A stretch of DNA of 64,000 nt, from IMG/VR virus record IMGVR_UViG_3300032086_003519, positions 1 to 64,000 of that record. One strand, 5' to 3'. This DNA is from a virus. The translations under genes were made by a program, and so were the position numbers. Numbering within the stretch: position 1 is the first letter of the stretch; each line of letters begins with the position of its first letter. Under the pieces are notes generated by a model. It was not told where the DNA came from. It saw only the letters and a program-made list of their open reading frames with translations, and made no database searches. Below, one piece after another: positions 6,301-55,761 of this stretch.

Positions 6301-8295
6301 CCAGCAACATTAACCGCTACCCGATATGGCAAGCCAACATATGACCTGTGTGCAATAGAACCATCTTTTACAATCCCGTCTACAACTGAAAACATAGATG
6401 GTTGGATAATGACGTATGCAAAAGTTGGAGATTTTATAAACGAAGATGAAGCTGCACTAAAATCTAATAACTATCTAGGCAACACTGTACAGTGGAAAGA
6501 TCTAGATCTTTACTATGATAAACAAAGTAAAAACTACGGCTCAGTTTATTATTTACAGTATTCAGATAATTATGCAACAGAAAATTTGGCGTTTTCATTT
6601 AATTCGACCTCCGATGGACAGGGATACTATTCAAACAGATACAATATACCTGAAGGAACAAAAGTTGGCTTTGGTTCTAAATTCAAGATTGACGGCGATT
6701 ATGCTGTGGTATCAGCCCCTCTGTTTGATTCTTTCATTGCTAATAATAATCTTTCAGTTATGCATGCCCCTTCACCTGAAGGGTCCGCCTATGTCTACAG
6801 GTTTGATTCCGAGTGGATTTATGTTGACGCGATTTATTCTGGAGGATATACATCTTCTGATATTTCTGGAGTATCCGACTGCGCTTACAATTATGCTTTA
6901 TTTGGATATGATGTTGATCTTAACAAAGACAGCAAGTACATAGCCGTATCTGAGCCGGGAACTAATACCATATACAAATACATTATACATGACAATGATA
7001 CTGTTTCGTCTATTGATAGTTACACAGATGACACCTCCGCCAGATTTGGAAGCTCTTTGAATTTATGTTCAAATAGTATTCTAACTAATGACATTCAGTT
7101 TATTAAAGACCCAGTACACGATTACAGTTTTGCATTTACACCGCAAGAAAATGTGCAAGAAGTAGAGCAGTACAATCCTTCCTCTTCATCCACTATCTCG
7201 GTTTCTAGTCAATTCACATTTGTGAAAATGATTAAACCTTTTGGTGTGCCGAAACTTTTGGCAGGAAGAACATTCAGAGTTCGCTTTGCTGCTCAACCAG
7301 AACTTATCATAGAAAAAATTTCTATATTAGACATTAGACAAAATTCCGGTAATCTATTTATAAGTGGGCCGATACTTTCTAATAGTGAGCAAGACCTACT
7401 ATATTATAGACCATTTGAGAGTGGCACTAATGATATGTCACTTCAGTTCGCTTCAATTGGTGTGAATTCTGGAATACCACTTCATGTCCACGTTCCAGAT
7501 CCGGCTAGTGGAGATATGTCCTTACATTTGCGTCAAGCAGAGAAATTTGAAACTACACTATTTATAGGTGCTGAATTTACAGACACTACTTTTGCTTCAG
7601 ATCTGAGTATTAGTGGGCCAATAGCTAGTACATTAGAAAAAGACTTGTTCGCTGGTGGAGTAGAAGTAGAAGCTAATGATAGAGATCTTTATATACTCGG
7701 AGGTTTAGCTGCGCAGCGCGGACAAGATATGTTTATCAAGCAGGACGATTTGATTAGTGCGTCTGGCGCTAATGAATTATTCCTAGAAGGCATTTATGGA
7801 GGAACAGGCAATATAGTCAAGACCTCTACATTGTATCTTGGAGCAGGCAACTTTGGCCCTGCCAGTGGAATTTCTACACTAGCACTAAAGACAGACGAAT
7901 TTGGAAGAGCTAGTGGTATCACTACGTTAGCAATTGCCCAAGACCCTGCAAGCGGAGTATTTGACGGAACGTTTGCTGCTTCTGTTGGTGGCTCTGGAGT
8001 ATCTGATACAACTGGCTTCTTCAGAGAAAATGGAACTGCGAATTTAATAATTGCTGCTACAGCACCTGCATCTGGCATTAATACGCTTTATCTGCACCGA
8101 AAAGGTATTGGCGGCGGTGAAGAATTGGATGCAAACAGCAACCTAATTGTGTATAATCTTACAGAAGCTTCAAATGTTAATTTAGCTGTTTCAGGAGCCA
8201 ATATTGCTACGGCGGATATGAATATAGCAATATCAGGAGTTGTAGGATTGGGCACAGGAATTATGCCTGCATTTGTTAGAGGTTATCAAGACTAA
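322..8295 (+). CDS. Giant 2657-residue repeat-rich virion protein, fibre/adhesin-like
   Basis: The ATG is preceded by AAGGAAGAGAG. The N-terminal half is low-complexity beta-type sequence rich in Ser, Asp, Tyr and Asn, with no catalytic motif seen. Residues about 1550-1815 and 2335-2657 hold two arrays of irregular 15-20-residue units built on SG-x-MPL-x-I, TLFI and D-x-LSISG (for example SGIMPLHI, SGVMPLFM, SGDMSLHL). Between them, about 2110-2260, are FG-GAP-like (integrin beta-propeller) units such as FGSKFKIDGDYAVVSAP followed by a G-x-AYVY strand. Size and repeats suggest a long fibre or surface adhesin displayed on the tail. It heads the plus-strand virion genes. Function is inferred from architecture only. 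Confidence 0.75.
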   Translation: MAKKKSSALSFSIESGDQSTFDLFMKSPENIRDFTNWQDRTSSLEVDRARAFEKTPFDVNSDSFSTYDNIEIANDVAIASVPDIDICQVGYNINISAFFRVKVTISVVDGYNDLPGGNIQYGMPFFYIGTRARTSEFHFARCQENQGNPLVPISEKRELQFFVASNDYLDGSSNSGFAITNAIDLQPLERRLSVIQDAFAKASLEEGDLPPYYRGQTYRCNGVDSGIPLPADNPGIHVLAEDQGSSFLAFNMSGAREFGEDELGDGIVTATSEFTKSSSLGNTVAYKVELMRYDCKGFCYDKIRHEGAGRVDYFTRRSGYLTSADTANNTVTLDTTELQDGDLIKITSVLEPTPVSSINSLNGLHYVRKSGSSYELYSQANLTERLTVTDFRGITSSTWTLLKSVDNDSPTSNWAYSKSDCGINRCGTKVTQDQVLHTETTYDQITSTPGTNPNELIIRDKNFNLGKSIAISNTGAMAISQPASHLTVTYDETGVGRNRILFSTDYVVPASLGSRPEFGRNNTHSLSVLPALYLDVCEEEVDEATAPDDPTGSTYGGEGDIFDTPMSEPVVSTDGDNVDFYNYGDTDDDFSGSPDSSVPAGNFSGDSSLDKVYSIQTPYLFDTGEKINYGCVFIRDTLDSASRVITAATDNPFISSSPSVVPTYVDLYWHKVYAQNKGIFSDYNLVTNTIPHTFGSLSLRDNGEGEYEVFDIRILPDISTKWKFHGHPLSRSKVRATYLADFNNTEKYTDGFGIAIAFGEDGELYAADQTDHYGTAFSLFSDTLLFDYDHQQPRSFDPEYPYYSEGADFGLAQGELVTTKKQENLALQDFADNHTKTRRQMHEFSGQLFSVHIKLKNSTQVIPYNTADSVSIASDSDKVFISDGADIKVLTKESEISFGTKTANVINVARFTSFFDNGRYQSVRDALENPRIFPAPASMFDGHTLLSQDNSFAPSYDTYNSATSPLYKVSPFFGGLIQGSFETNLLASNAGGELRWIFDYFYKEGDPYDPFNYQNDATVAAIQNVPTSDTSQGSTKITYYTFSESYIPDAEPKFRVKDNILGFIKTTSIDEFGLYGGIAKRLVLYDTSKSRPEFLQRITAAVPGYGSVQDARYDLNEVINGDNSAPLDFSGFDIAGGKIFTSIVDNENDISTSGLTVTRLPEGRAYAIFTDTGMSPLPRSVPLGESTESVLPFFSFAEDFSDSSPYNLNDIYQYNRNEGSFISGSSFDINNSHRAPVVVFSVKEFTKNGQAIAIPIAVNFQVDVDSNTTFPDGNVVLPAIRLYADDPRLTIEQAGEVSGSDLVFGQDSSDFTPLYFGGVQNAKRFIITPTYRFTGGRYIGTASIDQSQRSDGLQAGGILSHYRPLSAADNRTLRYNDGNGNALTEELDAYGNRIPASYVLEFDDVNKDSYNASFKKGQKSLMVSLLSWSDEYRAERPRQGGFYDEDVEAYRKAYTKMNYNEENPHSYINNARVSVDVTYREYDLARVRRFACNGNWHLLENPNPDLLFNGPEISTLDLVRAGVGKSQPYLNESVEVLLGTESDSIQVVSPQLAFDTPKPDFLSLMISNVATENNDADLFTRGHIVSTGNVDLHISGVRLAYNFATLHLGEVKVDNDFDISIPEVIGFECDGISLALLPPTGTHEQATSSLVFPGATGVNEGLSLSVNPTYTSGAFDFYVQGGLGSGNMDVAISGVHGVSNSMPCVEGNLFIGAMTGPSSGIMPLHINRFTESGVMPLFMEPGNSSGVMPLSINTQPIHSSGTLFSRGHQSDDSETTLFIGRQFDEKRMDLSVSGPVEFNGDMTLHASGAVIPTANSLTNNYSHSCELLKTENKFDLSPSSEKLIPLTKANSISRNTHLPGSSFKYGYYSPLSPGNRLNNFTQSSANIFYDQELSREAVASNRSILAVGSNVSALSSDVQSLQIFEYIDGDSLDLKFTYDNFYEDMINLQVIGDNDSGMLIRYKSVDVSEYNTIAVSIRFRTANGLRDAVCILQPATLTATRYGKPTYDLCAIEPSFTIPSTTENIDGWIMTYAKVGDFINEDEAALKSNNYLGNTVQWKDLDLYYDKQSKNYGSVYYLQYSDNYATENLAFSFNSTSDGQGYYSNRYNIPEGTKVGFGSKFKIDGDYAVVSAPLFDSFIANNNLSVMHAPSPEGSAYVYRFDSEWIYVDAIYSGGYTSSDISGVSDCAYNYALFGYDVDLNKDSKYIAVSEPGTNTIYKYIIHDNDTVSSIDSYTDDTSARFGSSLNLCSNSILTNDIQFIKDPVHDYSFAFTPQENVQEVEQYNPSSSSTISVSSQFTFVKMIKPFGVPKLLAGRTFRVRFAAQPELIIEKISILDIRQNSGNLFISGPILSNSEQDLLYYRPFESGTNDMSLQFASIGVNSGIPLHVHVPDPASGDMSLHLRQAEKFETTLFIGAEFTDTTFASDLSISGPIASTLEKDLFAGGVEVEANDRDLYILGGLAAQRGQDMFIKQDDLISASGANELFLEGIYGGTGNIVKTSTLYLGAGNFGPASGISTLALKTDEFGRASGITTLAIAQDPASGVFDGTFAASVGGSGVSDTTGFFRENGTANLIIAATAPASGINTLYLHRKGIGGGEELDANSNLIVYNLTEASNVNLAVSGANIATADMNIAISGVVGLGTGIMPAFVRGYQD

Positions 8296-8306
8296 GGAGT
8301 TTATAA

Positions 8307-9782
8307 ATGGCAGTAACATTTAATCCCATTGGGGGATCGCAGATTACCATAGGAGGAACTAGCTCGACTGGCCCGTTTCCTAAGTATTCTATAAATACTG
8401 AGAGAGTCGAGACCGGCGACGGAACTTTAATTGACTTAATATATAATATTAGTGTCACTGGCCAAATCATTGCAGAGGGCGACATAACAACTCCCGGCGC
8501 TCGCCAAGATAATCTGATGAGCAAGATGATTTCCAGATTAGCCCTTATGGAAAATGAAGTTCCTGTTGGTAGGCTTGAAATAGTATCTTATGGTGGTCTT
8601 TCTAACGACTTAACATTTAGCGATGCTGTTCTTACTGGAGTTGAATACGGTGATCAGGATGATTCTGGTTCCGTACAGTTCCAAGACTACACATTCACTT
8701 TTGTTGCCCATAAAAGAGATGGCCAAAAAATAGGTAATACCTATTCTCTCGCTAGCGCCGAAGAAACTTGGGAGATAGCAGAAAACACTGAGAGAACTTT
8801 TAACGGTAATACCCTCACCGGAATTCCTCTAAAAACTTTTACAATTACACATACGGTAAATGCTACTGGGTATCATAGAACAAATGATTCCTCATACCTA
8901 GAATCTGCGTGGTCAGAAGCTAAAGACTGGGTTTTAAGTAGGCTTGTTGACAGCCCTGATGCTACTATTGGTCTTGATATGGCAGACAAGGCTAGGTTTA
9001 CGGATTTTATTCCTGTCTACATGGGGACTACTTCTGCGGATTTCATTAATCTTGGCTCAGAGGAATATTATAATCACAATCGTGTGGCTAATTCTGACTT
9101 GGCTGGCGGGTCTTATTCCGTAACTGAAACTTGGTTTGTCTCCAAAGAATCAGTCACACACGACGTGGAGATTAACTACGACCTAAGTGAAGAGCAGGTC
9201 GCCTCTGTTGTAGTTAATGGCACAATAGCAGGATTGAGCACTTCTAGTTTTGAAAGCAAAGAAGAAAACAAAGTAACTCAAGCAGAAGCTGTTTTGGATT
9301 CAGTTTTAGGTCAAGCCTACACTCTTGCTAGTGCTTTTTACGATACAGTTAAAGAGTCGGGAGCTAATGGTTTAACTAATAATGTGTTATCAAAAAGTGT
9401 TGCAAAAAGCCCTGTAGCTGGTACTATTACTTATACGGTTAACTTTAGTGATAAAGAAAAAGATAATGACGACACTATTACTGAGACTTTGACAGTTACA
9501 GATGACAATGAAAATAGAACAGTTAAAACTATAGCAGTTATAGCTGTTATTGGAAAGGCTGACGGTCCAATTTTTCAGGACATGTCAACAACTCCAGAGA
9601 GAAGGAGAAGCGTAGCCATAGATTGGACCATGAAAAAAGATAAAAGGGATGCCAAGCCTACGTCAGAAGCTGTCGCTGCTGCATATGCATACCAGCCAAC
9701 TGGAGCATTTGAAGTAGCTCGATCAGAATCTTGGACTCCATCAACTGGTGCTTATACATTAAATATAGATTGGACTTATTAA
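8307..9782 (+). CDS. Virion structural protein, 491 residues, tail-associated (putative)
   Basis: The start has AAGGAG about 8 bases upstream and lies 11 bases after the giant fibre-like gene. The protein is beta-rich and opens with a Gly/Thr/Ser segment. Residues about 30-150 look like a tail-tube or baseplate beta-domain (TGQIIAEGD, SGSVQFQDYTFTF). Residues about 290-440 resemble another sandwich domain with a charged DKEKDNDD loop. There is no signal peptide or enzyme motif. I recognise no specific family. Position between two large virion genes supports a tail or baseplate role. Confidence 0.55.
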   Translation: MAVTFNPIGGSQITIGGTSSTGPFPKYSINTERVETGDGTLIDLIYNISVTGQIIAEGDITTPGARQDNLMSKMISRLALMENEVPVGRLEIVSYGGLSNDLTFSDAVLTGVEYGDQDDSGSVQFQDYTFTFVAHKRDGQKIGNTYSLASAEETWEIAENTERTFNGNTLTGIPLKTFTITHTVNATGYHRTNDSSYLESAWSEAKDWVLSRLVDSPDATIGLDMADKARFTDFIPVYMGTTSADFINLGSEEYYNHNRVANSDLAGGSYSVTETWFVSKESVTHDVEINYDLSEEQVASVVVNGTIAGLSTSSFESKEENKVTQAEAVLDSVLGQAYTLASAFYDTVKESGANGLTNNVLSKSVAKSPVAGTITYTVNFSDKEKDNDDTITETLTVTDDNENRTVKTIAVIAVIGKADGPIFQDMSTTPERRRSVAIDWTMKKDKRDAKPTSEAVAAAYAYQPTGAFEVARSESWTPSTGAYTLNIDWTY

Positions 9783-9783
9783 T

Positions 9784-12700
9784 ATGGTACAGTTAACAGA
9801 GCCTCTAGAAATGTTCAACGCTTATGTCGTTGACTTTAGCTGTAGTGTGGGTTATGGCGCAGAGTCTAGCACTATGCAGATGACTCTTGCTGAAGACCCA
9901 GACCATGTAGACTCTAACGGCAATTCCGCACCGAAGATTATACAGCACAAAAAGCCTCGACTTGATGAAGATGGAAAACTTATCCCTGACAATAATGGCA
10001 GTGTTGAATATGATATTGTAAGCGGATTTCCAGAGGTTGGAACTTGCTGTCAGTTCAAGTTTGAAGGTTTTGAGTTTGTCGGAATTTTTCAAAGGTATAA
10101 TTATAATCAAAGTCTTAGTGGAAATACTTATGACATTACATTTGAATCCCCATCAAAAGCTCTTGACGGCACTCAAGTTATTCTTGACAAGTTTGAAGGT
10201 ACTGTATTTACTGAAGGCAACAGATATTTTCCATCAGAAGGAGAAAACTTTACCAGCCAAATAAACAATATTTATAATCCATTTGGTATAAAAGAAAATT
10301 ATGCTTTTGGAGGTTTGTTTGGTGGGTCTGGAAGAAACGAGTTCGGTTTTGATGCTAGAGAGCTTTTAGAAATTATAGAGGGTATTTCTAGATCTGAATA
10401 TACTTACGATAATCCCAGTGGCGCCTCTGTAGATGCATCTACTAACTCCGACGATGAAGAAATCATAGGAGGTCCAATTCACTTCGGCGAATCAAAGTTT
10501 GTTATTGATTTTGCTGAGCTTAAAACCTTAGTTCCTGACTTTCTTAGGATCAAGGGTGATTTCCAAAGCATCAATGCTATACTGCAAGAATGTACAGAAA
10601 TAATAGTTCATGATTATGTTTCTTACATCAAGCCAACTGAGACACAAGTGCTTGTTGGTTATGGCGGAGGAATTAATCCTCAGCCTATATATCGAACAGA
10701 AGTACAAAATGGAGTCACTCTCCCAACACTAGATGATGACGAAAATGTTACAGGACCAGTAATATCATTTAAGTATCTTAATAAAAGCGCACAACCAAAT
10801 CCCGGAGTTGTAGAAAGTTTAGTAAATGCCAAGAAGGGCACGACACTTATATCTGCTACTAATGGTAAAGAGCTTGCAGATGTTGTTACGCAAAAACTAA
10901 TTATCGGAGACAAGGCTACTAGAGTCTGGCATGCCGGTTTAGAATATATGATACCTGTTTACGGTAAAGACTTAGCTGGAGAATGGTTAGTTGGTGCTGG
11001 ATTTGGAGATACAGATATAGCTCCAGTATTAATGCCTAACGGCGCCACATATAATGCATATATAGCAGAGTTAAGAGCTGCCCTTTCTGGATTTGATGTT
11101 TGGTGTTGGTATCATACCGTTGGCGCTGCATACGGCTACACAAACGTGACTAACCCAACTTATAGTTCTTTCGCTAGAATTAGCCAGTCTAAGTTTAATA
11201 AAGTAATTCAAAATACAATGACACCATACGCTATAATGTCTTCTTTTAATGGAGACCACATGAGGGCAATGGCTCAAAACGAGGCTCAGATGGGGCTAAA
11301 CGGCAGTGTAGATGGTGATAATACAGAAGTCTTTCAGGCAGTATTAAATACGGCAACGAATTATTATGGTAAAACTTATTTTATTCTTTTGCCTGTTGAG
11401 CCCGGAGGAATTGACAATAACATTAGATTTGTAAAAGAGAAGTCTGAATCTGCTTGGCAAATATCTGAGTCTGGATGGGACCCTGATTTTACTATCAAGG
11501 ATATTGATGGTTATGATGACACGGGAAAGATGAAAGCAGCTGCTGGCTATTTTCCTAGTTTTTCGACCTCCACCAAGGAATTCAGTAGAGACTTTAGTGA
11601 AATAGAAAGACCGTTACCTTATGTGATTCCCAACCTTGCAACAGTTTTGGTGGGAGCAACTAATATTACGGTCGATAAAAAAATATACTGGAGACAGAAT
11701 CCGTATTTTCAGCAGAACAACAATCCGTATGATGATGTTTCGGCAATGGTTCACGTTACTGTTCCTGCAGTTTATGAACATGTTAATGGAGGTTTGATGC
11801 AATCAGTTGGCTTCGACAAGCAGCTAGTATCTGGTCCGAGAGCTGCAATGGATGGGATATTTGCGTTTGCAGCAGGTCTTGGTCCGGGATCGGCTTTAGG
11901 TTCAGCTACAGGTTTTAGTGGCTATGGCACCGAACCGTCAAATTTTCTTTCAATGGAAAACGCCGCACTAGCTTTGAAATATATGCCGAAAGCAGTAAGA
12001 CCTTATGAGATATCTATTCCACAAAGCAGTACAAGATATACTTGGGGACCTTGGTATAGATATAGTGCAAAAAGAGGTAAGGCAGAAATAGAACAAAACT
12101 CTCAACTCAATCCAGAAACATTCGGCAGTGTAAATGTTTTGGATCAAGCTGCTTTTGCTTTGGCTGGTAGTGCGGTTGCAGATATGTATCAATCTGAATC
12201 TGGCTCTATAGAAGTTGCAGAATTTCCAGAATATAACATTGCTGAAAGATTCACTGGTAGTGGACCATACGTAACTAAACTTTCTTGTAAAGTCGGAACT
12301 GGCGGAATAACTACAAGTTATGAGTTTTCTACTTGGACTAGAAATTTTGGTAAAATAGCAAAGTACAATGTTGATAGAATTGCGGCGATTAACAAGAATA
12401 AAATTAGGGCGCTCAGACAAGGCTCGAATGGCATACCAATGATGCCATTCCAAGGTTCAAGCACTATAGGTGCTGGAGCGCAAAATGCCCATGCATTGAA
12501 CCCTCAAGTCAATAATTTCTTCACCGGAATTCCAGTCCCAATGAATGTTGCTGGTGGTGCCGCTAATAATCCAGACGGACCACAAGTTTGGCTAATGTCT
12601 GGCAAAAATGGCGAAAGTGTAGCCGAAGATCTTGTCCGTAAGATTCAGTTTGGTAATAATATTCTACACGCTTATGACGTAACCTTTGGTTGTACTCAAG

Positions 12701-13470
12701 AACAAATATTGAGCCCTATTGGTGTTCCGTCTACTAGACAGAGAGTCGAGACTGGGCAGCATTATGGCGGCATAAAGGATTTTCTCCCATACATAAAAGA
12801 CCCCAAAGATGCTGAAGATAGCACTGGGGATAAATTTAGCTTTAACCTAGTTAATCCTTCTGCAGCAGATTTAGATCCGTATTTTGGACCAAAATCCTAC
12901 GACGGTTGGGGTAAAGTAGATTATGGAGTTACCGTTGTGGATGATTTTGCAACCGTGTCTCAAGGTCGCAATTTTATGGCATTTGAAGACAGAAATAACA
13001 CCTCGGAAAAATCTAACGAATATAGAACGTATGGACTAAGAGGGCCGATATTATTGTCTGGCTGGGGATATGATGTTGATGGACTTCCCGTGCCGAGAGG
13101 AGAGAGAGATTTACCTGACCAATTCAATGGCAGTTTTTCACAAAATAGATCTGGCTGGAAAACAGGGCCTGTAGACTTGAGGTGGGATGAAGAAAGACAA
13201 GTTTGGGCTGGTGGCTATCAGATAGTAGAAGGTTTCTTAACAACTCCAGTAAAACCTGCAATCGGACAGAACCCCGATGGAGAGTCAACAGTACAAATAT
13301 ATAAAAGAATTGACGGAACTCTTAAAGCTACTGGGGAAGAAATTAAAGTTAAGAATTTGGATAAACATCTTGAGATAACACAGAATCTACCTTTATATGT
13401 TAGTTGCATTAGAATTAATCGAGATTGGAGATTCTTATATATCGGCTGTGATGTTCCTGCAGTACAGTAA
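9784..13470 (+). CDS. Large virion protein, 1228 residues, baseplate/hub-like (putative)
   Basis: It begins one base after the previous stop, with only a weak GGA upstream, so it is probably translated by coupling. The N-terminal 130 residues contain a domain resembling tail-hub or late-control proteins (CQFKFEGFEFVGIFQRY, then NTYDITFESPS). The middle, about residues 240-420, has a mixed alpha/beta segment. The C-terminal third carries a long helix (about 860-885, KYNVDRIAAINKNKIRALR) and ends in a beta-rich region. No hydrolase motif is evident. Together with its neighbours it probably forms tail tip or baseplate. The hub assignment is inference from weak resemblance and context. Confidence 0.5.
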   Translation: MVQLTEPLEMFNAYVVDFSCSVGYGAESSTMQMTLAEDPDHVDSNGNSAPKIIQHKKPRLDEDGKLIPDNNGSVEYDIVSGFPEVGTCCQFKFEGFEFVGIFQRYNYNQSLSGNTYDITFESPSKALDGTQVILDKFEGTVFTEGNRYFPSEGENFTSQINNIYNPFGIKENYAFGGLFGGSGRNEFGFDARELLEIIEGISRSEYTYDNPSGASVDASTNSDDEEIIGGPIHFGESKFVIDFAELKTLVPDFLRIKGDFQSINAILQECTEIIVHDYVSYIKPTETQVLVGYGGGINPQPIYRTEVQNGVTLPTLDDDENVTGPVISFKYLNKSAQPNPGVVESLVNAKKGTTLISATNGKELADVVTQKLIIGDKATRVWHAGLEYMIPVYGKDLAGEWLVGAGFGDTDIAPVLMPNGATYNAYIAELRAALSGFDVWCWYHTVGAAYGYTNVTNPTYSSFARISQSKFNKVIQNTMTPYAIMSSFNGDHMRAMAQNEAQMGLNGSVDGDNTEVFQAVLNTATNYYGKTYFILLPVEPGGIDNNIRFVKEKSESAWQISESGWDPDFTIKDIDGYDDTGKMKAAAGYFPSFSTSTKEFSRDFSEIERPLPYVIPNLATVLVGATNITVDKKIYWRQNPYFQQNNNPYDDVSAMVHVTVPAVYEHVNGGLMQSVGFDKQLVSGPRAAMDGIFAFAAGLGPGSALGSATGFSGYGTEPSNFLSMENAALALKYMPKAVRPYEISIPQSSTRYTWGPWYRYSAKRGKAEIEQNSQLNPETFGSVNVLDQAAFALAGSAVADMYQSESGSIEVAEFPEYNIAERFTGSGPYVTKLSCKVGTGGITTSYEFSTWTRNFGKIAKYNVDRIAAINKNKIRALRQGSNGIPMMPFQGSSTIGAGAQNAHALNPQVNNFFTGIPVPMNVAGGAANNPDGPQVWLMSGKNGESVAEDLVRKIQFGNNILHAYDVTFGCTQEQILSPIGVPSTRQRVETGQHYGGIKDFLPYIKDPKDAEDSTGDKFSFNLVNPSAADLDPYFGPKSYDGWGKVDYGVTVVDDFATVSQGRNFMAFEDRNNTSEKSNEYRTYGLRGPILLSGWGYDVDGLPVPRGERDLPDQFNGSFSQNRSGWKTGPVDLRWDEERQVWAGGYQIVEGFLTTPVKPAIGQNPDGESTVQIYKRIDGTLKATGEEIKVKNLDKHLEITQNLPLYVSCIRINRDWRFLYIGCDVPAVQ

Positions 13471-13487
13471 TAAGGAGTTATCGTTTA

Positions 13488-15455
13488 ATGAATAGCCGCG
13501 CGTGTTGCTGTAGAGAGGGAGAGTCTTGTGCTGATTGCAAGCTGCAATGCCTATTCTACTGTGATGGAAATCCCGCAGGCCCAATGCCTCTAGATCAAGC
13601 TTGGGATTCAGGAGTCTATTTACCAACTCCGGGAGGAAATAATCCTCCTACTGGGTATTCTGATTTTGATAGAACGAAGCATCCTTGCAATGATAGTAAG
13701 TTTGATTATGCTCTTCTTTTGTGCAATATAAATGCAGCTAAAGATGATGAATTTATTGTATGTCTAAACGGCTATGAATTAGGTCCGATTGCGGAGTTAG
13801 GCGTAGATGCTTGTGGTGGTAGATTCTTTGCTACTTCTCAAGAGATAGTAGATGTAATAAAACGTGGACAGGATGACCCAGAGTGTCCTCAGTTTGAAGG
13901 TATTACAATTTGTTGTGTGAGAAATACTGACGCTGTAACAATAGTAGATAAAAAGCCTTTTATGGCTGATTCTAGAATTGTCGATGTAGACCCAAATGGA
14001 AACCCCGTTGTTACTAAAAACTTTTTCGATCTTTTTATGCGAAATACCAAGAATAATAATAATGGGAATTTTGGAGAGTTTGTAATATGGAGGCTGTCTA
14101 AATATAGAAGTGGAGGTAAAACTCTGGAATCCCTTTGTGAATTAGGGAGAGGTAATTACGCTGGAGTTAGTGGTGAAGACCTTGGGCCATATGATTTTGG
14201 CGACCAACCTCTATGTTGCGATCCTAAGCTTTACCCTTCTTATTGTTGTACAATTGACGGGATTGTTCAGTGTGTCCCAGAAAAAGGAACTCCTGCAGCA
14301 GAACCTGCCGATGAATGTTCTGATTATTACTATCCTCCAGAGCCACCGCCGGAGCCACCGCCAGAGCCGCCTCCAACACCAGCAATTTGTGCCGGCTACT
14401 GTTATTACACATGGAGTCAATCAGACTATAAATGGATTTTAGATGAGGCTATAAGCTATTGTTGTAAAGATCCTGATAATCCTCTGACTGGAACTGGTTG
14501 TGATCCGTATGACCCTAATGACATTGGCAGGGAGTGTAATTGTTGCCCTCCTGTGAATCCGGGTTTATTTGACGGAGCTGTAATGTTTGGTGTTTGTGAT
14601 GATATTAGTGTTGCATGTGCATTGCCACCAGAACCACCAGAGCCACCACCGGAGCCACCACCGGAGCCGCCGCCAGATCCACCATCAATCAACTGTTGGT
14701 TTGAATGGAGTGGCACTGTCTGGTATTTTCGTGACGACATTAGTTTTTGTGAACAAATTTGTTGCGAACCCACAGGCACAGGAAGTGAGGTAGGACAATT
14801 AGCGCTTGGTACTTGTCAAGAGTCTTGTCCAGAGCCGCCTTCAGAGCCACCGACACCTACGTGTGAAGGAGGTTGCGTATATAGGTGGGAACTTGATTCG
14901 AGTAATGCTAATGGTGGATATTGGGCGCTGGTTGATCTTGCTAGTGATTGCACTTGCACCTGTTGCCCTCCTGTGCATATTGGAAGTGATGGAGATATTT
15001 ATATTGGCACATGTCAAGATGATATTTGTCCAGATCCTCCATCCCCTCCGCCACCTAAAGATCCGCCTTCGCCTTGTGGCTGGTGTGCATATATATGGGA
15101 TGCATCTACATCTTCATGGGTTTTAGACACTAGTATTACTAACTGTCCTAGTCCGTGTGGGTGTTCAGAGCCACCATACGACGGAACGTTTGATGCTGAA
15201 ATGGCAAATGGGGCTTGTACTGGACCTGCTCCTGACGATCCTGATGATGATCCACCTGAAGCCGCTTGCGATAACGCCTCGTGCGCATGGATATTCAATA
15301 TGGACCCAGATGTCTGGAGCTGGGAGCTAATTTTTGGTTGTCCGGCGCATTGTCCGGGTTACTCTTGTAATCCACCTGCTCCGTTACCACTTGATGCCGA
15401 TGTAACTGATCCGGGATTTTTTGCTAGCGCAGATACCCCTTGTTTTCCACCTTAA
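13488..15455 (+). CDS. Cysteine-rich, proline-linked modular surface protein
   Basis: AAGGAG lies about 10 bases before the ATG. The 655-residue protein starts with a Cys cluster (RACCCREGESCADCKLQC) and a roughly 280-residue domain. It then has about five Cys-rich modules joined by Pro/Glu linkers of the type PEPPPEPPPEPPP. Each module follows C-x2-C-x-Y-x-W, a few polar residues, W-x-LD or similar, CC, then G-x2-DG-x4-G-x-C. Modules lie at about 14386-14630, 14692-14820, 14862-15030, 15075-15225 and 15268-15450. There is no signal peptide or membrane segment. Such many-Cys modules could bind metal or form disulfides after release. A virion spike, whisker or glycan carrier is plausible but unproven. 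Confidence 0.6.
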   Translation: MNSRACCCREGESCADCKLQCLFYCDGNPAGPMPLDQAWDSGVYLPTPGGNNPPTGYSDFDRTKHPCNDSKFDYALLLCNINAAKDDEFIVCLNGYELGPIAELGVDACGGRFFATSQEIVDVIKRGQDDPECPQFEGITICCVRNTDAVTIVDKKPFMADSRIVDVDPNGNPVVTKNFFDLFMRNTKNNNNGNFGEFVIWRLSKYRSGGKTLESLCELGRGNYAGVSGEDLGPYDFGDQPLCCDPKLYPSYCCTIDGIVQCVPEKGTPAAEPADECSDYYYPPEPPPEPPPEPPPTPAICAGYCYYTWSQSDYKWILDEAISYCCKDPDNPLTGTGCDPYDPNDIGRECNCCPPVNPGLFDGAVMFGVCDDISVACALPPEPPEPPPEPPPEPPPDPPSINCWFEWSGTVWYFRDDISFCEQICCEPTGTGSEVGQLALGTCQESCPEPPSEPPTPTCEGGCVYRWELDSSNANGGYWALVDLASDCTCTCCPPVHIGSDGDIYIGTCQDDICPDPPSPPPPKDPPSPCGWCAYIWDASTSSWVLDTSITNCPSPCGCSEPPYDGTFDAEMANGACTGPAPDDPDDDPPEAACDNASCAWIFNMDPDVWSWELIFGCPAHCPGYSCNPPAPLPLDADVTDPGFFASADTPCFPP

Positions 15456-15473: not shown

Positions 15474-15872
15474 ATGAAATGCGTAAAAGAAACTTGCAAT
15501 GGGAAATTGACTCTAATACAAGATACTGTTTGGCTTTGCGATGAGTGCAAAGGTATGTACAAAAAAGAGTCGATAGAGGAATTCAAAAAGTTTCAAGCGG
15601 AAAGAAAACCTTCGCTTGTGAAAAAGGCTGCAAACTTTACCAAAGCGGCAGTAAAACACGCTGCAAATGGTTTTAAAAATGTCCCTGAAACAGTGTATAA
15701 TAGTCGGATGGAGATATGTAACAGCTGTGAAAAGCTAGATAATGGGAATTGTTCGGAGTGCGGATGTGTAGTGAAATTAAAGACTGCTTGGGCTTCTGAA
15801 AAATGCCCTATAGATAAATGGTCTGAATATAAAGCTACTAGAGGAAAATGCGGAGGATGCGGTAGAAAATAA
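15474..15872 (+). CDS. Small zinc-cluster protein
   Basis: This 132-residue protein has two Cys clusters. The N-terminal ribbon is C-x4-C then C-x2-C (MKCVKETC and LCDEC). The C-terminal cluster is C-x2-C, C-x2-C-x-C, a CP, then C-x2-C (ICNSCEKL, CSECGC, KCGGCG). A Lys-rich linker lies between them. The C-terminal pattern is widespread in small phage proteins of unknown role, often near virion genes. It follows the Cys-rich surface protein by 18 bases, so the two may be co-expressed. Only weak purine sequence precedes the ATG. DNA or protein binding through zinc is likely; the function is unknown. Confidence 0.6.
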   Translation: MKCVKETCNGKLTLIQDTVWLCDECKGMYKKESIEEFKKFQAERKPSLVKKAANFTKAAVKHAANGFKNVPETVYNSRMEICNSCEKLDNGNCSECGCVVKLKTAWASEKCPIDKWSEYKATRGKCGGCGRK

Positions 15873-15952: not shown

Positions 15953-16882
15953 ATGGCAGAAATCACTTTTGGTATAGATAACCAAGAAAACATCGTAGGC
16001 TCAGGGTTGGGCTTTTACGGGGCTTCGTTCGGCTCCTCAGTACAAATCGGTGCTTTCCAAGACAGAACATTTGTAACAAACTCAGCAGGTACGTCACAAG
16101 GTCCTGCGGCTAATAACATCAAGTTTGAAGTTCCAGCTACAGGTAATACTCAGACAATTGGTTCTGGTATTCCAATCACGAAGATCAACTCTGGTAATAG
16201 AACTTTCCACATTAACTTCGACCATAGTACAGACGTTAATGTTCAGAACTGCCAGTTAAGAATTTATGATAGAACTAATATTAACTTCCCAGCTTCTGGT
16301 GTTGTGACAAAGGTTTGCGAATTAGTAAACTTTGACAATAAAACTACCAGTACTTGGATAAGTGGCAATGGAGAAGATAATGTTGCTCTTGGTAGTAACT
16401 TCTACGGTTCTGGTGACATGTTCTGGTGGGGTTCACCTTGGCCAGATTCAGGCCCAGTAAGAGCTGGACAGGACTTCTACGATAACTCTTCTGGCGTTAG
16501 ATTCCACAACTTTACTCAAACAGAAGCTACTGCTGGTAATGGTAATGGTGACTCAAGACTCGGAACTGTTACTGGTGATACCGAAACTGTTGGCGGTACT
16601 GGTGTTGTAGTTCCATTGTTTAACTCACCCGGAAGTGGTGGATACTTTGTAAACAGTAAGAATACTGACGTTTCTGCTGTTCAGCCTAAATGGTTGCAAT
16701 ATTATGATAATAGTAATAGACCTGATGATGCTCCTAACTTAGGAACAAAAACTACTACTAATACATTTGGTGGTACTGGTCTTGCTAAGCGTCATACTTG
16801 GTATGTCGGTATTTCAGCTTCACCGCTAAGTATCGGATCTAAGACACAATATGGACTGTATGTATCTCTAGAGTACCTATAA
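15953..16882 (+). CDS. Probable abundant virion structural protein, 309 residues
   Basis: The ATG is preceded by AAAGGAGACTTTAAA. The protein is Gly/Asn/Thr/Ser-rich and beta-type, without Cys clusters, membrane segments or enzyme motifs. The middle part has aromatic-rich turns (GDMFWWGSPWPDSGP). The end, TQYGLYVSLEYL, looks like a terminal beta strand. Codon choice differs from its neighbours, with more AAC, TTC, GAC and GGT, as in highly expressed genes. It has its own likely promoter and a strong terminator. A decoration, tail or head-fibre protein made in many copies fits best. I recognise no named family. Confidence 0.55.
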   Translation: MAEITFGIDNQENIVGSGLGFYGASFGSSVQIGAFQDRTFVTNSAGTSQGPAANNIKFEVPATGNTQTIGSGIPITKINSGNRTFHINFDHSTDVNVQNCQLRIYDRTNINFPASGVVTKVCELVNFDNKTTSTWISGNGEDNVALGSNFYGSGDMFWWGSPWPDSGPVRAGQDFYDNSSGVRFHNFTQTEATAGNGNGDSRLGTVTGDTETVGGTGVVVPLFNSPGSGGYFVNSKNTDVSAVQPKWLQYYDNSNRPDDAPNLGTKTTTNTFGGTGLAKRHTWYVGISASPLSIGSKTQYGLYVSLEYL

Positions 16883-16906: not shown

Positions 16907-16932
16907 AAAAGCCCTGCTAGCGCGGGGCTTTT
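16907..16932. terminator. Bidirectional intrinsic terminator between convergent arms
   Basis: An 11-bp stem (AAAAGCCCTGC with GCGGGGCTTTT, one G-T pair) and a TAGC loop are followed on the plus strand by TTATTTTTT. The minus-strand side also ends in a T-run after the stem. It lies between the plus-strand virion genes and the convergent methyltransferase gene, whose TAA stop falls inside the right arm. Confidence 0.85.
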
Positions 16933-17782
16933 ATTTTTTGGTAAAGAGAAAATTGCAGAAGAACTTATGACCGCCATTCTTGACTTCTTTTAGCATCCAA
17001 TCATAGTTTTTACGTTCACTGAACATCGTTGTTTCATGTACTCTTGATACATAATTGTGCACGAATTCTGGTGTTTCAAGCTCGGGCGATTCGTTTAGTA
17101 TAGTTTGCAATCTTATTTGCCAGTAATTATGATCTGACGCAGTATACTCAAAACCCTTGCTTTCTAGAAAGTCTCTAATCTGCTCTATAGTGCATCCACC
17201 ATTATAATAAGTCGCTTCGTGGGTCATGGTTGCTTCTAGCAGGATTCGTTCTACATCTGTGATTCTATCACCCAAACCTTCAAGAGCTATCAATTCGCTC
17301 TCCTGTAGATCCATAATTAAAGCATCCACACTTTCAATATTCCTTTCATTCATAAAGGTGTCCAGTCTTGTGGCATCGACTTCTATCTTAGTGACTGGCT
17401 CATTTATCTGCTCATTTTCAAGCAGTGAAGAAGCTCCTATGTTTGAGTTTTCATTTACCGCATCGACTGAATAAAACTCGATTTTTTGGTCTTTGTTGTA
17501 TACCGCTTTTTCTATCAATTCTATATTAGCATCGGAATATCTTAGATTTCTTTTGCATAGGTTTATTGCGTATGGATTACACTCAAACGCATAAGACTTA
17601 TCGACTCCATACATAGAACTAAATACCATTAGATCCACTATATCTCTTGAGCCACATTCAATTACGGTCTTGTAGTCAATACCAGACAGAAATCTGTTGA
17701 GCTTAACATTTACATAATCACAACCAACTTCAATATCTTTTTCGGTCGAGTTTCTAGCCAGTTCTTCTAAATCTATATACAT
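16931..17782 (-). CDS. FkbM-family SAM-dependent methyltransferase
   Basis: Predicted class I methyltransferase of 283 residues. The SAM-binding strand VIECGSRD, followed by AFECNP, is at about residues 35-70, and the FkbM signature IMDLQESELIALEGL is at about 185. Family members often O-methylate sugars, which fits the glycan cluster upstream. I chose the ATG at 17782 because AAAGGAAG precedes it. A longer frame to 17815 begins inside a terminator stem and lacks a ribosome site. It is the last gene of the minus-strand arm and is separated from the preceding gene by that terminator. Confidence 0.8.
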   Translation of the reverse strand: MYIDLEELARNSTEKDIEVGCDYVNVKLNRFLSGIDYKTVIECGSRDIVDLMVFSSMYGVDKSYAFECNPYAINLCKRNLRYSDANIELIEKAVYNKDQKIEFYSVDAVNENSNIGASSLLENEQINEPVTKIEVDATRLDTFMNERNIESVDALIMDLQESELIALEGLGDRITDVERILLEATMTHEATYYNGGCTIEQIRDFLESKGFEYTASDHNYWQIRLQTILNESPELETPEFVHNYVSRVHETTMFSERKNYDWMLKEVKNGGHKFFCNFLFTKK

Positions 17783-17809
17783 CTTTCTTCCTTTAAAACA
17801 AAAATAAAA

Positions 17810-17835
17810 CCTCACCCAAGTTTCCCTGAGTGAGG
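17810..17835 (-). terminator. Intrinsic terminator with GAAA tetraloop
   Basis: On the minus strand an 11-bp stem, CCTCACTCAGG with CTTGGGTGAGG (two G-T pairs), is closed by a GAAA tetraloop and followed by TTTTATTTTTG. It separates the zinc-ribbon gene from the FkbM gene and may set a lower expression level for the latter. Confidence 0.85.
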
Positions 17836-17856
17836 TCGCCCTAACCGGAGCACTCT

Positions 17857-18186
17857 TTATTCAAGAGTCTTAGTCTTAGGATTCCATTTCTGCCAACCAC
17901 CGTCAGGTAGCCAGTTTCCATCGGCATCCTTGCGTTTGGGGAATAATCCACCACCCTTCTTGTTTGCACCAAATGCTAGTTTAGCACCACAGTCCACACA
18001 ACGAAGTTCGTAGTATTCGTTACCATCATTCTCTCTCACGACAAATCTTAGGTTCTCAGAACCACATTTGCCACAAGATGTTTCACCAAATACTTCTTGA
18101 AAAGTAGCTAGTTGCTTCCAGATTTCACGAACGCTATCTGCTTCAAATTCTACGCTAAGTTTATTTACCTTGAAATTCGCTTTCAT
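17857..18186 (-). CDS. Zinc-ribbon protein next to recombination-like gene
   Basis: 109 residues. A Cys4 zinc ribbon (CGKCGSENL, then about 24 residues, then LRCVDCGAKL) lies in the middle. The front is short and charged, and the tail is Trp/Lys/Gly-rich (GGWQKWNPKTKTLE). The ATG at 18186 has GGAG six bases upstream and overlaps the previous stop as TGATG, so translation is coupled to the Rad52-like gene. A partner role in DNA binding or recombination is a guess from context. No exact family is recognised. Confidence 0.5.
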   Translation of the reverse strand: MKANFKVNKLSVEFEADSVREIWKQLATFQEVFGETSCGKCGSENLRFVVRENDGNEYYELRCVDCGAKLAFGANKKGGGLFPKRKDADGNWLPDGGWQKWNPKTKTLE

Positions 18187-18962
18187 CAGTTTCTCCAATT
18201 CTTGTCATAACCCATAATCGTCTCTGGTATTTCTGTTGCTTTAGTTTGGTATTTATTAAGGACTCCGAGCATCGCAGAGGCTTTCTTCTTTTCTACCTCA
18301 TTGATTGACCCATATTCGCCCTCACCAGAATTAATAAACCCAATAACGTTGATGTCCAATTGCCTACATTTATTGTCGATAAAGTTGATTTGAGAAGCAC
18401 TAATCTTAGAGTCCTCAGCCCACTCACCGTCTGTAGGGTTGTCCTTCTGTACGCTTTGCTGCACAATAGACACAATGTCTTTTCTTGCTAATTCCTCAGC
18501 AGCTAGACATCGTACACCTAAAGCCTTACGCAAAGCTCGTCCTTCCGCACGAGTGCTTGCGGTAGCTACTGGATGAGCACAAAATAGGTCATCAGTATTA
18601 CCGTGCCACACATCGGCAACTTCTTTAAAGACTCGGAGTTGTCCAGAGTTCATCCAATTGATTGCAACCTGATAAACAACTGTAGCTCTTCCGGGTCCAT
18701 TTCCATCGGTTGCGGGAAATACTTGATCTGGGCCAGATTCAATAACCTCACCTAGTAGTAGTCCTGCAACTCTTCTCAGTCCTGCACAAATGGGATTTCC
18801 ATCAATAAGTTCATCTTTGCGAAAATGTCCCATTACGTATTCATTCCATTCCTGTGAACCATACTCAGGAACGTCTGGATCTTTTGGTACTGCAATTACG
18901 TCTTGTTCCGTGACGGCTTCAAAGTCAAACATTTCTTCTTCAATTTCAACTGTTTTTGTCAT
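18186..18962 (-). CDS. Possible Rad52/Erf-like single-strand annealing protein
   Basis: 258 residues. A beta-rich core, VVYQVAINWMN then RVFKEVADVW, precedes a helix ATASTRAEGRALRKALGV at about residues 145-165. The pattern of a sheet followed by a helix with A-x2-TRA-x-GRALR-x-ALG resembles Rad52/Erf-type annealases. The C-terminal helices may bind DNA or partners. I chose ATG 18962, which has CTGGAG upstream and overlaps the previous stop by one base. The zinc-ribbon gene follows directly. The fold call is tentative; it could be another DNA-metabolism protein. Confidence 0.4.
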   Translation of the reverse strand: MTKTVEIEEEMFDFEAVTEQDVIAVPKDPDVPEYGSQEWNEYVMGHFRKDELIDGNPICAGLRRVAGLLLGEVIESGPDQVFPATDGNGPGRATVVYQVAINWMNSGQLRVFKEVADVWHGNTDDLFCAHPVATASTRAEGRALRKALGVRCLAAEELARKDIVSIVQQSVQKDNPTDGEWAEDSKISASQINFIDNKCRQLDINVIGFINSGEGEYGSINEVEKKKASAMLGVLNKYQTKATEIPETIMGYDKNWRN

Positions 18963-19732
18963 CAAGAAATCTCCAGTTCTATAAGTCTCTTTGACTTCGG
19001 AGGAAATTTGGTAGCCACTTGCTTTACTACTGGCTGGACCATTTCCCAAAGTCTATTCTCAACACCCCTAGTAAAGCTGGGGCACAAATACTTAACTCTA
19101 ATAACACAGTATCCATTTTTAATCATGATACCGTTCTTAATTGCATCGTGCTTGACATACTCTCGCAGATGCTTTTCACCAAATACGGGCATAAAATGTT
19201 GTGGCCCGTCTATCTCTATAATAGTATCAATATCAGGAAGATACAAGTCCATTTCATATTTTTCTCCACTTATCAAGCCTTTTTTATGTAGCTCAACAGT
19301 GTAACCTATGTTCTTCAGGTTTTCAAACAAACTTCTCTCCGCCTTAGACCCATCTCTAATTGTATCTCTCAGAGCCTCGCTGCCCTTTCTTTGTATCTCT
19401 TTTCTTTCAGCCTCACTCAGGCTTTCCCAGTGTTTCTTAGCCATTGCGCTACGTCGATTTCTTTCTTCTTCAGACATTGAGTCCCAATGCTTCTCTAAAG
19501 AGTTACTAATCTTGTCCTTGGCTTCTTCACTTCTTTTCTTGCCTTTTGTTGGATGCACAGCACTGCCATTCTCAAGAGCTTGTTTCTGTGCCTGACTTTT
19601 GCTACGTATCTCAACACCATTTGACAACAACACTCTCCTAATTTTATTAGGATAAGTATTATATCTTTCTGCAATAGCTTTGGTGCTCAGTTTTTCTTCC
19701 ACGTAAAGTTCTATGATTTTGCTGGCGTCCAT
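18962..19732 (-). CDS. Likely homing endonuclease: HTH plus NUMOD-like repeats plus Vsr/DUF559-like nuclease
   Basis: 256 residues. An N-terminal helix-turn-helix (STKAIAERYNTYPNKIRRVL) is followed by NUMOD3-like basic motifs (GKKRSEEAKDKIS) and repeated KHW-x-S units. A C-terminal PD-(D/E)XK-type domain carries YEMDLYLPDIDTIIEIDGPQHF and a later basic strand CVIRVKY. That order is typical of free-standing phage homing nucleases with a Vsr-like fold. ATG 19732 has GAGGAG six bases upstream. It sits tightly between a glycan gene and the annealase-like gene with overlaps on both sides, so it is well integrated into the operon. Activity is inferred. Confidence 0.7.
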   Translation of the reverse strand: MDASKIIELYVEEKLSTKAIAERYNTYPNKIRRVLLSNGVEIRSKSQAQKQALENGSAVHPTKGKKRSEEAKDKISNSLEKHWDSMSEEERNRRSAMAKKHWESLSEAERKEIQRKGSEALRDTIRDGSKAERSLFENLKNIGYTVELHKKGLISGEKYEMDLYLPDIDTIIEIDGPQHFMPVFGEKHLREYVKHDAIKNGIMIKNGYCVIRVKYLCPSFTRGVENRLWEMVQPVVKQVATKFPPKSKRLIELEIS

Positions 19733-20184
19733 ACTAACTCCTCTAACTGTTCCATGTTCCAATTATCTACAATACCCAAAACTTCTCGGTTAGCGTACTT
19801 CTCAATCAAGTCTTTATGGTATTGACTTCTTGCGATCAGTTGTATATTTTCATCTCTCATAATTTGTATAACGTCTGTAAATACGAGAGGGTTTCTTAGC
19901 CATTCTAAGTCCCAGACATAAAAGAATTTATCGGAACTGTTCTGTGTCTTTAACATCAGGTTCGCCGTTTCTACGCTGTTCGCTACTGTGACACCATAGT
20001 AATTAGCATAATAAGAAATGTTCATCACAGAGAAGAAAGGCTTCAGCACAGGTGGTGCTAGATTATTATAGAAGCAAACTGGCGAATATTCTACATCCTT
20101 TACCAGCTTGTTAAACTCTTTTATCAAATAAAAACTAGATTGTGTTGGCCCTAAATTATCGACAACCGCAGCAATTCTCTTCAT
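19711..20184 (-). CDS. Glycosyltransferase-cluster protein of unknown function
   Basis: 157 residues starting MKRIAAVVDNLGPTQSSFYL, like the first Rossmann strand and loop of GT-B glycosyltransferases. It includes KFFYVWDLEWLR and QLIARSQYHKDLI, typical of an N-terminal GT-B half that checks for peer enzymes, but there is no C-terminal donor-binding half. It may be a truncated or single-domain relative. It overlaps the exostosin-like gene before it by 29 bases, so it belongs to the glycan operon. Catalysis cannot be claimed. Confidence 0.45.
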   Translation of the reverse strand: MKRIAAVVDNLGPTQSSFYLIKEFNKLVKDVEYSPVCFYNNLAPPVLKPFFSVMNISYYANYYGVTVANSVETANLMLKTQNSSDKFFYVWDLEWLRNPLVFTDVIQIMRDENIQLIARSQYHKDLIEKYANREVLGIVDNWNMEQLEELVWTPAKS

Positions 20185-20947
20185 CTTTTATCAAATTCTC
20201 CCAATACTTAAAAGACAGTTTTCGCTCATCATATATAATATTAGGAACTTCCTCAACAAATTGCACAAGTTTTTTATTAGTTATTTCTTGCCAATCATCA
20301 ACAAATAATATAGGTAATTCTGAAAGACATCCATGAGTGAGGTGTCTCTGCACTATAGGTATGCAGCCCATATAAAGAGCTTCCCATATTCTGTGAGTGT
20401 CTACACCATTTCCTCTGGGGCAAATACAAAATGCATAGTTTGATAGATTACGAATATATACATCAAAGCCTTGACCATTAATAGATGGAGCAAAGTCTGC
20501 GTCTACTTTGCCGCTCACTATGAGGTTCATCAAGTCTACTCTGGATTCATGTGTTGATGGATTAAATTGAGTAAAGGCTCGCAGTAATCTTTTCTTTGGT
20601 TTCTCCGATTTAATAATTATATCACGTTTAGCTGGGTGCCAATGTGAATTCTCTAAACCTATCGGTATTGGAAATGTTCTACTCGATGGCGTACACAAAT
20701 TTTGAGCATACCAACAGATTAGATTTTTAGGCAGTAGGTTACTCATTAATTGCACTTCTGTGTCACCGTTATGTGTCACAAGTTTGAACCCTACGTCTGG
20801 ATTTGCTTCTATAAACACTAAGGCTTGTAGATATTTATCTGAAGGAGCGTACATAATCAACTCCTTCTTGTTGGGCATCTCTTGACCAAGCTCAAAATCG
20901 CAGATAGACTTAAAGCTGTCGCCATCAACAAAATCTACAGTGTACAT
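20156..20947 (-). CDS. Exostosin-like (GT47-type) glycosyltransferase
   Basis: 263 residues. The GT-B C-terminal signature NYAFCICPRGNGVDTHRIWEALYMGCIPIV at about 175-205 is diagnostic of exostosin-like enzymes and would bind the nucleotide-sugar. The N-terminal half is the acceptor-side Rossmann domain. GGAG precedes the ATG. It overlaps both neighbours by 13-29 bases. The probable role is sugar transfer in phage-directed glycan synthesis; donor and acceptor are unknown. The C-terminal CCGCR is odd and could bind metal. Confidence 0.75.
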   Translation of the reverse strand: MYTVDFVDGDSFKSICDFELGQEMPNKKELIMYAPSDKYLQALVFIEANPDVGFKLVTHNGDTEVQLMSNLLPKNLICWYAQNLCTPSSRTFPIPIGLENSHWHPAKRDIIIKSEKPKKRLLRAFTQFNPSTHESRVDLMNLIVSGKVDADFAPSINGQGFDVYIRNLSNYAFCICPRGNGVDTHRIWEALYMGCIPIVQRHLTHGCLSELPILFVDDWQEITNKKLVQFVEEVPNIIYDERKLSFKYWENLIKDEENCCGCR

Positions 20948-23287: not shown

Positions 23288-23289
23288 AT

Positions 23290-55751: not shown

Positions 55752-55761
55752 AAAATTTCCT

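Follow-up and report, generated by a model that had tools for sequence, protein, structure and literature searches.

The stretch of viral DNA analyzed here, called the window, comprises positions 1 to 64,000, or the initial 64 kb, of the 87,212-bp virus record IMGVR_UViG_3300032086_003519. An open reading frame (ORF) of 655 amino acids occupies exactly positions 13488-15455 on its forward strand and encodes the cysteine-rich protein that is the subject of this study, the Cys-module protein. A Shine-Dalgarno-like AAGGAG (13472-13477) is located 10 nt 5' of the ATG, and genes on the same strand lie close on both sides. Because of the Shine-Dalgarno sequence, the tight same-strand setting and an orthologue in another virus that evolved under a ratio of nonsynonymous to synonymous substitution rates (dN/dS) of 0.23, the ORF is a real gene. 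Cys accounts for 8.7% of its residues, compared with a median of 1.61% in the 55 window ORFs of at least 120 amino acids. The gene product is probably a host-attachment fibre of an undescribed kind, since proteins with related modules hold the same place in planctomycete prophages.

The protein contains 57 Cys, 21 in the N-terminal part (residues 1-277; 13488-14318) and 36 in five modules. The modules, all encoded on the forward strand, comprise residues 301-377 (module 1; 14388-14618; 10 Cys), 403-447 (module 2; 14694-14828; 6 Cys), 459-514 (module 3; 14862-15029; 8 Cys), 530-577 (module 4; 15075-15218; 6 Cys) and 594-652 (module 5; 15267-15443; 6 Cys). Linker 1 (PPEPPPEPPPEPPP; 14319-14387) precedes module 1, and the modules are separated by linker 2, which is the longest (14619-14693), linker 3 (14829-14861), linker 4 (15030-15074) and the Asp/Pro linker 5 (15219-15266). 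The linkers are free of Cys, and their 90 residues include 48 Pro, 10 Glu, 9 Asp and 9 Ser or Thr. Pro-rich linkers of this kind generally tend to be extended, in a polyproline-type conformation. Tandem Repeats Finder detected two period-12 arrays with a CCAGAGCCACCG-like consensus, in the coding DNA of linker 1 (14337-14368) and linker 2 (14633-14684). A preliminary description of this DNA had proposed about five Cys modules split by long Pro/Glu linkers with tandem-repeat DNA, and the present analysis agrees with it, Asp being added to the linker composition. Its module motif held in part: the Cys modules are repeated, and the exact C-x2-C-x-Y-x-W is confined to module 4, with CC seen in modules 1-3 and G-x-C in modules 1-4. 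The pattern common to the modules is C...[YFW]-x-W/F...W...C...C...P...G...C. Neither a membrane anchor nor a signal segment was found in the protein.

The repetition of the module is well beyond chance. A module-shaped pattern, which was composed after the modules had been seen, matched the protein four times, whereas 10,000 shuffles averaged 0.0053 matches and never exceeded 1. With a profile made from 10 modules of planctomycete chromosomes only, the window ORF came first in a six-frame search of the whole record (E 6.4e-5; the next, 0.2). Modules 3 (i-E 1.8e-4) and 4 (i-E 7.5e-4) were individually significant with this profile; modules 1, 2 and 5 were not, the score of module 2 (7.2) being that of the best of 1000 shuffles. 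Modules 1 and 2 were matched by profiles A4 and A11, which were built with such modules (A4, A8, A11, A12 and A13 denote the module alignments or profiles used in our searches). An alignment of 11 modules from the tailed phage, prophages and locus L182 (loci are denoted by L and a number), which takes in window modules 3 and 4 and module 2 of the orthologue, shows an invariant set of eight residues: C, W, W, C, C, P, G and C. Module 5, the most diverged, departs from this signature in that the first W is F and the last G-x-C is missing. The planctomycete W-W-C-P-G module family is one defined in the present analysis. Neither the full-length protein nor either half could be assigned to a Pfam or PHROG family, and PDB sequence searches with the protein, its modules and the neighbouring genes gave chance matches only.

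The orthologue is encoded by contig IMGVR_UViG_3300032277_002183 (L004) and is 79% identical to the window protein. All 57 Cys are aligned with Cys, and 448 of the 585 other aligned residues are identical; 36 of these Cys lie in the modules, where 167 of the 241 other residues are identical. The dN/dS value, calculated by the NG86 method, was 0.23 for the whole protein, 0.224 for the N-terminal part and 0.205 for the modules. The Cys-module protein is under purifying selection. L004 carries one whole extra module precisely at the position of linker 2 of the window protein, which makes linkers the sites of module gain or loss.

What do the Cys residues do? The preliminary description offered three options for what it took to be an extended spike: disulfide locking outside the cell, metal binding and carriage of glycans. 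Among these we prefer disulfide locking. The number of Cys is even in each of the five window modules, all 57 are conserved in the orthologue, a relative (L202) has a signal-like segment and looks exported, and the aromatic/Pro/Gly core persists in Cys-poor relatives; for these reasons disulfide bonds are favoured over metal. If the modules were instead metal-binding knuckles, holding Zn or Fe-S, they would work in the reducing cytoplasm or capture metal from sea water. The CC and C-x2-C arrangements would suit such knuckles, and one of the nine modules compared with Pfam and PHROG was RING-like (zf-RING_16, E 0.075). However, the matches of the nine modules were all at chance level, and beyond this one no match to a metal-site family was found. 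The relatives at L169 and L171-L175, which keep W, W, P and G yet lose most Cys, and the L202 protein with its signal-like N-terminus also fit a disulfide-stabilised fold better. We regard metal binding as improbable.

A compact three-stranded fold is predicted for a homologous module. The AlphaFold2 model of a 50-residue module from L149, made with four relatives of which two came from the window and L004, had a pLDDT of 96.8, a pTM of 0.76 and three strands. The preliminary description would have counted the absence of a predicted structured module against its proposal; such a module is now predicted, the one modelled being that of a planctomycete chromosome. The AlphaFold2 model of the full-length window protein, made with one orthologue, was poor, with a mean pLDDT of 39.8 that rose to about 73 in places within module 1. 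Foldseek searches of PDB and BFVD with the module model gave no match at E 0.001. VIA-align gave two tick complement inhibitor chains (Z 2.7 and 2.3), the best being the tick protein RaCI3 (Z 2.7, root-mean-square deviation 3.6, 43 aligned residues); both were rejected as fold relatives because the matches were too weak. The 50-residue model indicates neither a new nor a known fold.

The place of the gene in the virus is given by a related record, L005. Its order is the large terminase subunit gene (TerL), portal, major head protein, tape measure, homologues of the window genes at 322-8295, 8307-9782 and 9784-13470, and then the slot that the Cys-module gene occupies in the window; PHROG and Pfam matches identify TerL (7.9e-23), portal (9.1e-10), major head protein (5.3e-6) and tape measure (1.6e-24). 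Synteny around the window gene matches that of L005, and the window record begins one gene after the tape measure. The L005 gene order and the shared synteny therefore place the Cys-module gene in the tail-tip section. Thus, of the extended virion spike proposed in the preliminary description, the location in the tail section is supported by gene order, and presence in the virion is what we infer.

The upstream genes, all on the forward strand, encode conserved proteins of 2657 amino acids (322-8295; straight after the tape measure in the L005 record), 491 amino acids (8307-9782; a tail-section protein) and 1228 amino acids (9784-13470; probably hub-like, judging by position only). None of the three has a significant PHROG or Pfam match, and PDB profile searches with the 1228- and 491-amino-acid proteins gave chance matches only. 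Downstream, a 309-amino-acid protein (MAEI...SLEYL; 15953-16882, forward strand) is encoded by the best conserved gene of the virus group, found at 45 loci with the ending YGLYVSLEYL; searches of PHROG, Pfam and PDB gave nothing significant for it. The 1228- and 309-amino-acid proteins served as anchors of a locus survey, in which 5, 7 and 45 overlapping loci were collected. From the hub-like gene to the 309-amino-acid gene, these loci keep a common framework but differ in the protein of the slot.

The slot is variable. Over 46 loci, the framework clusters had 57, 35 and 19 members, counting fragments and split genes, and the clusters of slot proteins 1-6 members (BLAST, E 1e-6, 30% coverage). 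The median Cys content was 3.8% in slot ORFs (n = 39) versus 0.62% in framework ORFs (n = 107; Mann-Whitney p 1.7e-16). A Cys-rich DUF6171-like companion gene lies downstream of the slot gene in the window, and in 39 loci with a hub gene both were present in 21, the slot protein only in 6, the companion only in 2 and neither in 10 (Fisher p 8.9e-4). Because a number of loci come from identical or almost identical viruses, and relatedness is ignored, these p values are only descriptive. Seven loci whose stretch holds no hub (L020, L023, L046, L051, L054, L056 and L057) were dropped from the slot counts, and the hub-cluster protein of L033/L053 (573 amino acids, 26 Cys) was scored as no slot protein. 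The L005 slot protein, otherwise unrelated, shares its first ~130 residues with the window protein (phmmer E 6.2e-11), a homology that the BLAST clustering overlooks. The two slot proteins thus have a terminal part in common and differ in the rest, and the common part perhaps serves docking, as judged from sequence. Other slot occupants, at L010 (2890-7182), L012 (2911-7185) and L014 (3752-7495), are very large (1247-1430 amino acids), Cys-rich and unrelated to the window protein.

A tail-tip position suits any tail-tip part, and the slot is empty in some relatives. The Cys-module protein could then be a structural part of the virion without a receptor role, such as a tail collar, a tail decoration or a tip plug, its variability reflecting drift under low constraint. 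However, the low dN/dS values of the whole protein and of the modules, with all Cys kept, argue against low constraint, and a module protein located 5' of Zot in a filamentous-type prophage fits adsorption. We consider a purely structural role very improbable.

The preliminary description had suggested a search for module homologues, and relatives were found in planctomycete genomes, where they occur in tailed prophages, in one prophage of filamentous type and in a protein that looks exported. Viral sequences yielded little. The full protein gave no tblastn match at E 1e-3 in 50,697 isolate phage records; in the same records module 2 gave no match at E 5 and a planctomycete module four matches, all with E of at least 1. 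Among viral contigs, the full-protein search gave no further module-bearing contig, profile A8 found the known contig only, and A12 gave 600 pattern matches of which 0 were confirmed. No match was confirmed in genome contigs searched with A8. In planctomycete genomes, A4 matched none of 9, two of the 241 from the family and one of the 392 from the phylum. A11 matched four of the 392, with three being weak fragments, and 13 of 170 from the order of G569; A13 matched 11 of the 241 and two of the 392. The A4 match L146, a fragment with a stop, and the A11 match L176 were counted as chance. Module relatives are thus rarely found in planctomycete genomes. A genome with a match is not the same as a prophage; gene contexts were read only for L149, L150, L163/L164, L179-L182, L184 and L201-L203.

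The long planctomycete module proteins share with the window protein the layout of an N-terminal part, modules and linkers, and several lie among tail genes. The L163/L164 prophage has TerL (2.1e-39), portal (1.2e-40), tail genes, a gene called tape-measure-like from its size, position and weak similarity to the L181 counterpart, a hub gene, the module gene and a glycosyltransferase (GT) gene. In L181 the module protein comes after a hub that shares 44% identity with the L163 hub. In L179 and its near-copy L180, which make up one type, the order is tape measure (phrog_28, 2.1e-22 and 3.8e-21), a 264-amino-acid gene, the module protein and a GT with a C-terminal DUF6171-like domain, and in L203 homologues of this tape measure and 264-amino-acid gene precede the module protein. 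In L201 the module protein, with six profile matches, is followed by a GT with a DUF6171-like domain, no tape measure being present in the stretch; in L149 the module protein is flanked by GT genes, with no tape measure in 20 kb. A second kind of prophage is represented by L182, where the protein encoded directly 5' of a Zot/pI gene (PF05707 over cut-off; 5602-6099) contains the module and, at its C-terminus, a hydrophobic segment. By its gene content L182 is classed as a filamentous-type prophage with the module protein in the place of the adsorption protein. Attachment-type positions in two kinds of prophage, tailed and filamentous-type, support the adhesin reading of the window protein.

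Other relatives stand in different settings, some of them cellular. The L202 module protein (299 amino acids) looks like a cellular, exported protein from its N-terminal signal-like segment. L184 has glycan-type cell genes, and L150 has a short module ORF beside methyltransferase and GT genes. In L170/L178 two modules begin a long ORF, the rest of which we take to be YD-repeat-like sequence. L169 and L171-L175 are short planctomycete ORFs with one Cys-poor module each, in which W, W, P and G are kept and most Cys lost; L169, L171, L172 and L174 have an N-terminal hydrophobic stretch, judged by eye. These ORFs may represent a cellular use of the module fold.

The companion gene downstream of the Cys-module gene (15474-15872, forward strand) encodes a Cys-rich protein of 132 amino acids that matches DUF6171 (PF19668; E 8.4e-11, 42.6 bits against a cut-off of 27). 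It is homologous to the C-terminal domain of the GT encoded after planctomycete module genes (tblastn to the L179 GT, E 1e-13; hidden Markov model, ~1e-27 in L179/L180; also L201). Phages thus encode the DUF6171-like domain as a gene of its own, and in L179, L180 and L201 it forms the C-terminal domain of a GT beside module genes, an arrangement that gives a gene-fusion hint at its role. A related GT2-type glycosyltransferase is encoded next to the module gene in five loci, L149, L163, L179, L180 and L201, with identities of 47% (L149/L163), 35% (L149/L179) and 40% (L201/L179). No paper naming DUF6171 was found in the literature searched.

These neighbours raise the alternative that the protein is a glycoprotein scaffold, in which the linkers, with the modules as spacers, are glycosylated by enzymes of neighbouring genes, the DUF6171-like protein guides the transferase, and the glycan coat rather than the modules is what acts, by masking the virion or by binding lectin-like surfaces of the host. 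Such a scaffold would agree with the adjoining GT genes of the five loci, the DUF6171-like domain encoded by the next gene in the window, the co-occurrence of slot protein and companion given above (relatedness ignored), and the large convergent GT/methyltransferase/sulfotransferase set held by the record. The linkers of relatives are also suitable, with SSSSSP in L149, TTTTS/PPPP in L179 and L180, TTDSTT in L181, TGTGT in L163, TTTTP in L201 and a Ser-rich stretch of several hundred residues in L203; whole proteins reach 29.5% Ser (L149) and 24.5% Thr (L181), and those of L149, L179 and L181 qualify as Ser/Thr-rich. In the window, however, the linkers are of Pro, Glu and Asp, and with 9 Ser or Thr in 90 residues they do not resemble O-glycosylated mucin-like segments. 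At E 0.01, the window, L002 and L003 contain nothing homologous to the GT apart from its DUF6171 part. The glycan option of the preliminary description is therefore plausible for the prophage relatives, which have GT neighbours, and only weakly supported for the window protein, because its linkers hold hardly any Ser/Thr. As an account of the window protein, the scaffold is unlikely.

The glycan genes of the record form a large convergent set at 16931-33394 (reverse strand), with an FkbM methyltransferase, GT25, an exostosin-like GT47, an epimerase and GT1/GT2. L002 adds a sulfotransferase and a long ORF, which presumably encodes a SPASM/radical-SAM-like protein.

With moderate confidence we propose that the window gene encodes an extended tail-tip adhesin stabilised by disulfides. 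Its N-terminal part would dock onto the tail tip, that is, the hub and its neighbours. The C-terminal 355 residues would form five disulfide-stabilised beta modules of ~45-77 residues, spaced by stiff, negatively charged linkers of polyproline type. The modules would project from the tail tip and make repeated, probably low-affinity contacts with the planctomycete surface ahead of DNA injection. Modules and linkers would come and go by recombination, and the whole slot is swapped between related phages; exchange among relatives fits a host-range determinant. The DUF6171-like protein encoded downstream would be a dedicated partner, possibly in folding or modification.

Several observations weigh against this adhesin. 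Ten of the 39 hub loci have neither a slot protein nor a companion, and therefore a slot protein is not essential across the whole group. Modules occur in 2 of the 44 virus records searched, the two contigs being that of the window and L004, and are absent from 42; the Cys-module protein is therefore one of many solutions in the slot. PHROG and Pfam searches linked the protein to none of the known families of tail fibres or receptor-binding proteins. The number of Cys in planctomycete modules is not always even (7, 7 and 5 in 3 of 10, with module limits set by hand), which weakens the argument from parity. The N-terminal part, with a pLDDT of ~25, has no usable model. Finally, the module is also found outside phages, in the L202 exported protein and the L170/L178 long ORF, and therefore the module alone does not indicate an adhesin.

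The Cys-module protein resembles tailed-phage tail-tip or receptor-binding proteins, as a functional class, in its position after the tape measure and hub, its exchange among relatives and its repeated, presumably exposed domains on extended linkers. It differs from the tail fibre families of PHROG and Pfam in the lack of homology and in its very high Cys content. Fibres of tailed phages have a trimeric shaft, whereas the window protein and its relatives have polyproline/acidic or Ser/Thr-rich linkers. The planctomycete module proteins (L149, L163, L179, L180, L181, L201 and L203) are alike in signature, in the plan of N-terminal part, modules and linkers and mostly in tail-gene context; they differ from the window protein in their Ser/Thr/Gly-rich linkers, in an adjoining GT in most cases and in their other N-terminal parts. 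The 132-amino-acid companion shares with DUF6171 proteins a score above the family cut-off. The pIII (G3p) protein of filamentous phages is an adsorption protein made of small domains on low-complexity linkers. In filamentous phages its gene is located directly 5' of Zot/pI (PMC8310372). The L182 module protein is alike in this position. The protein from the window differs from pIII in lacking both membrane anchor and signal segment, and no sequence homology to M13 pIII is claimed. Because the module has no Pfam, PHROG or PDB match and no paper on it was found, the module family and the bead-and-linker plan appear to be undescribed in the searches made, slot proteins at the tail tip being a known kind. 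The literature searched contained no description of the module or of the module/DUF6171 gene pair.

The virus probably infects a marine planctomycete of the Pirellulales. Three DUF1501 (PF07394) genes are located on the reverse strand (52689-53900, 54453-55955 and 56673-57929), and the middle one is 84-86% identical over ~430 amino acids to genes of Rhodopirellula sp. and of Planctomycetaceae/Pirellulaceae metagenome-assembled genomes (among the best 80 of 561 matches), with 85-86% for the marine Pirellulaceae genes. The host assignment follows from this closeness to marine Pirellulaceae genes and is given as probable only, because the DUF1501 gene could be a recent acquisition. The two outer DUF1501 genes share 36% and 39% identity with it. 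Elsewhere on the reverse strand, DNA polymerase III alpha appears to be encoded by a split gene or interrupted by an insertion between two ORFs (34210-35790 and 36656-38248), one with finger and HHH and the other with PHP and alpha NTPase domains.

Planctomycete envelopes have been called cystine- and proline-rich in older work. The literature searched contains little on planctomycete phages. The idea of a proteinaceous planctomycete wall and surface fibres have been described (PMC4432640, PMC5394234). We tentatively raise, as a rather doubtful extension, that planctomycete viruses share an adhesion system: the W-W-C-P-G module, which exported planctomycete proteins would use as well, would serve on extended linkers both at the tip of tailed phages and in the adsorption protein of a filamentous one, a GT/DUF6171 partner would modify the module protein, and the target of the module would be a surface structure specific to planctomycetes. 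This structure could possibly be host proteins that carry the same module, in a like-with-like interaction or by mimicry of host surface proteins.

The link between Cys-rich tip proteins and a DUF6171-like partner, which planctomycete loci encode as part of a GT, offers a first testable role for DUF6171. A module profile could detect planctomycete viruses in metagenomes. The recurrence of the module in tailed prophages, a filamentous-type prophage and a host protein that looks exported may provide a handle on how phages bind to planctomycetes.

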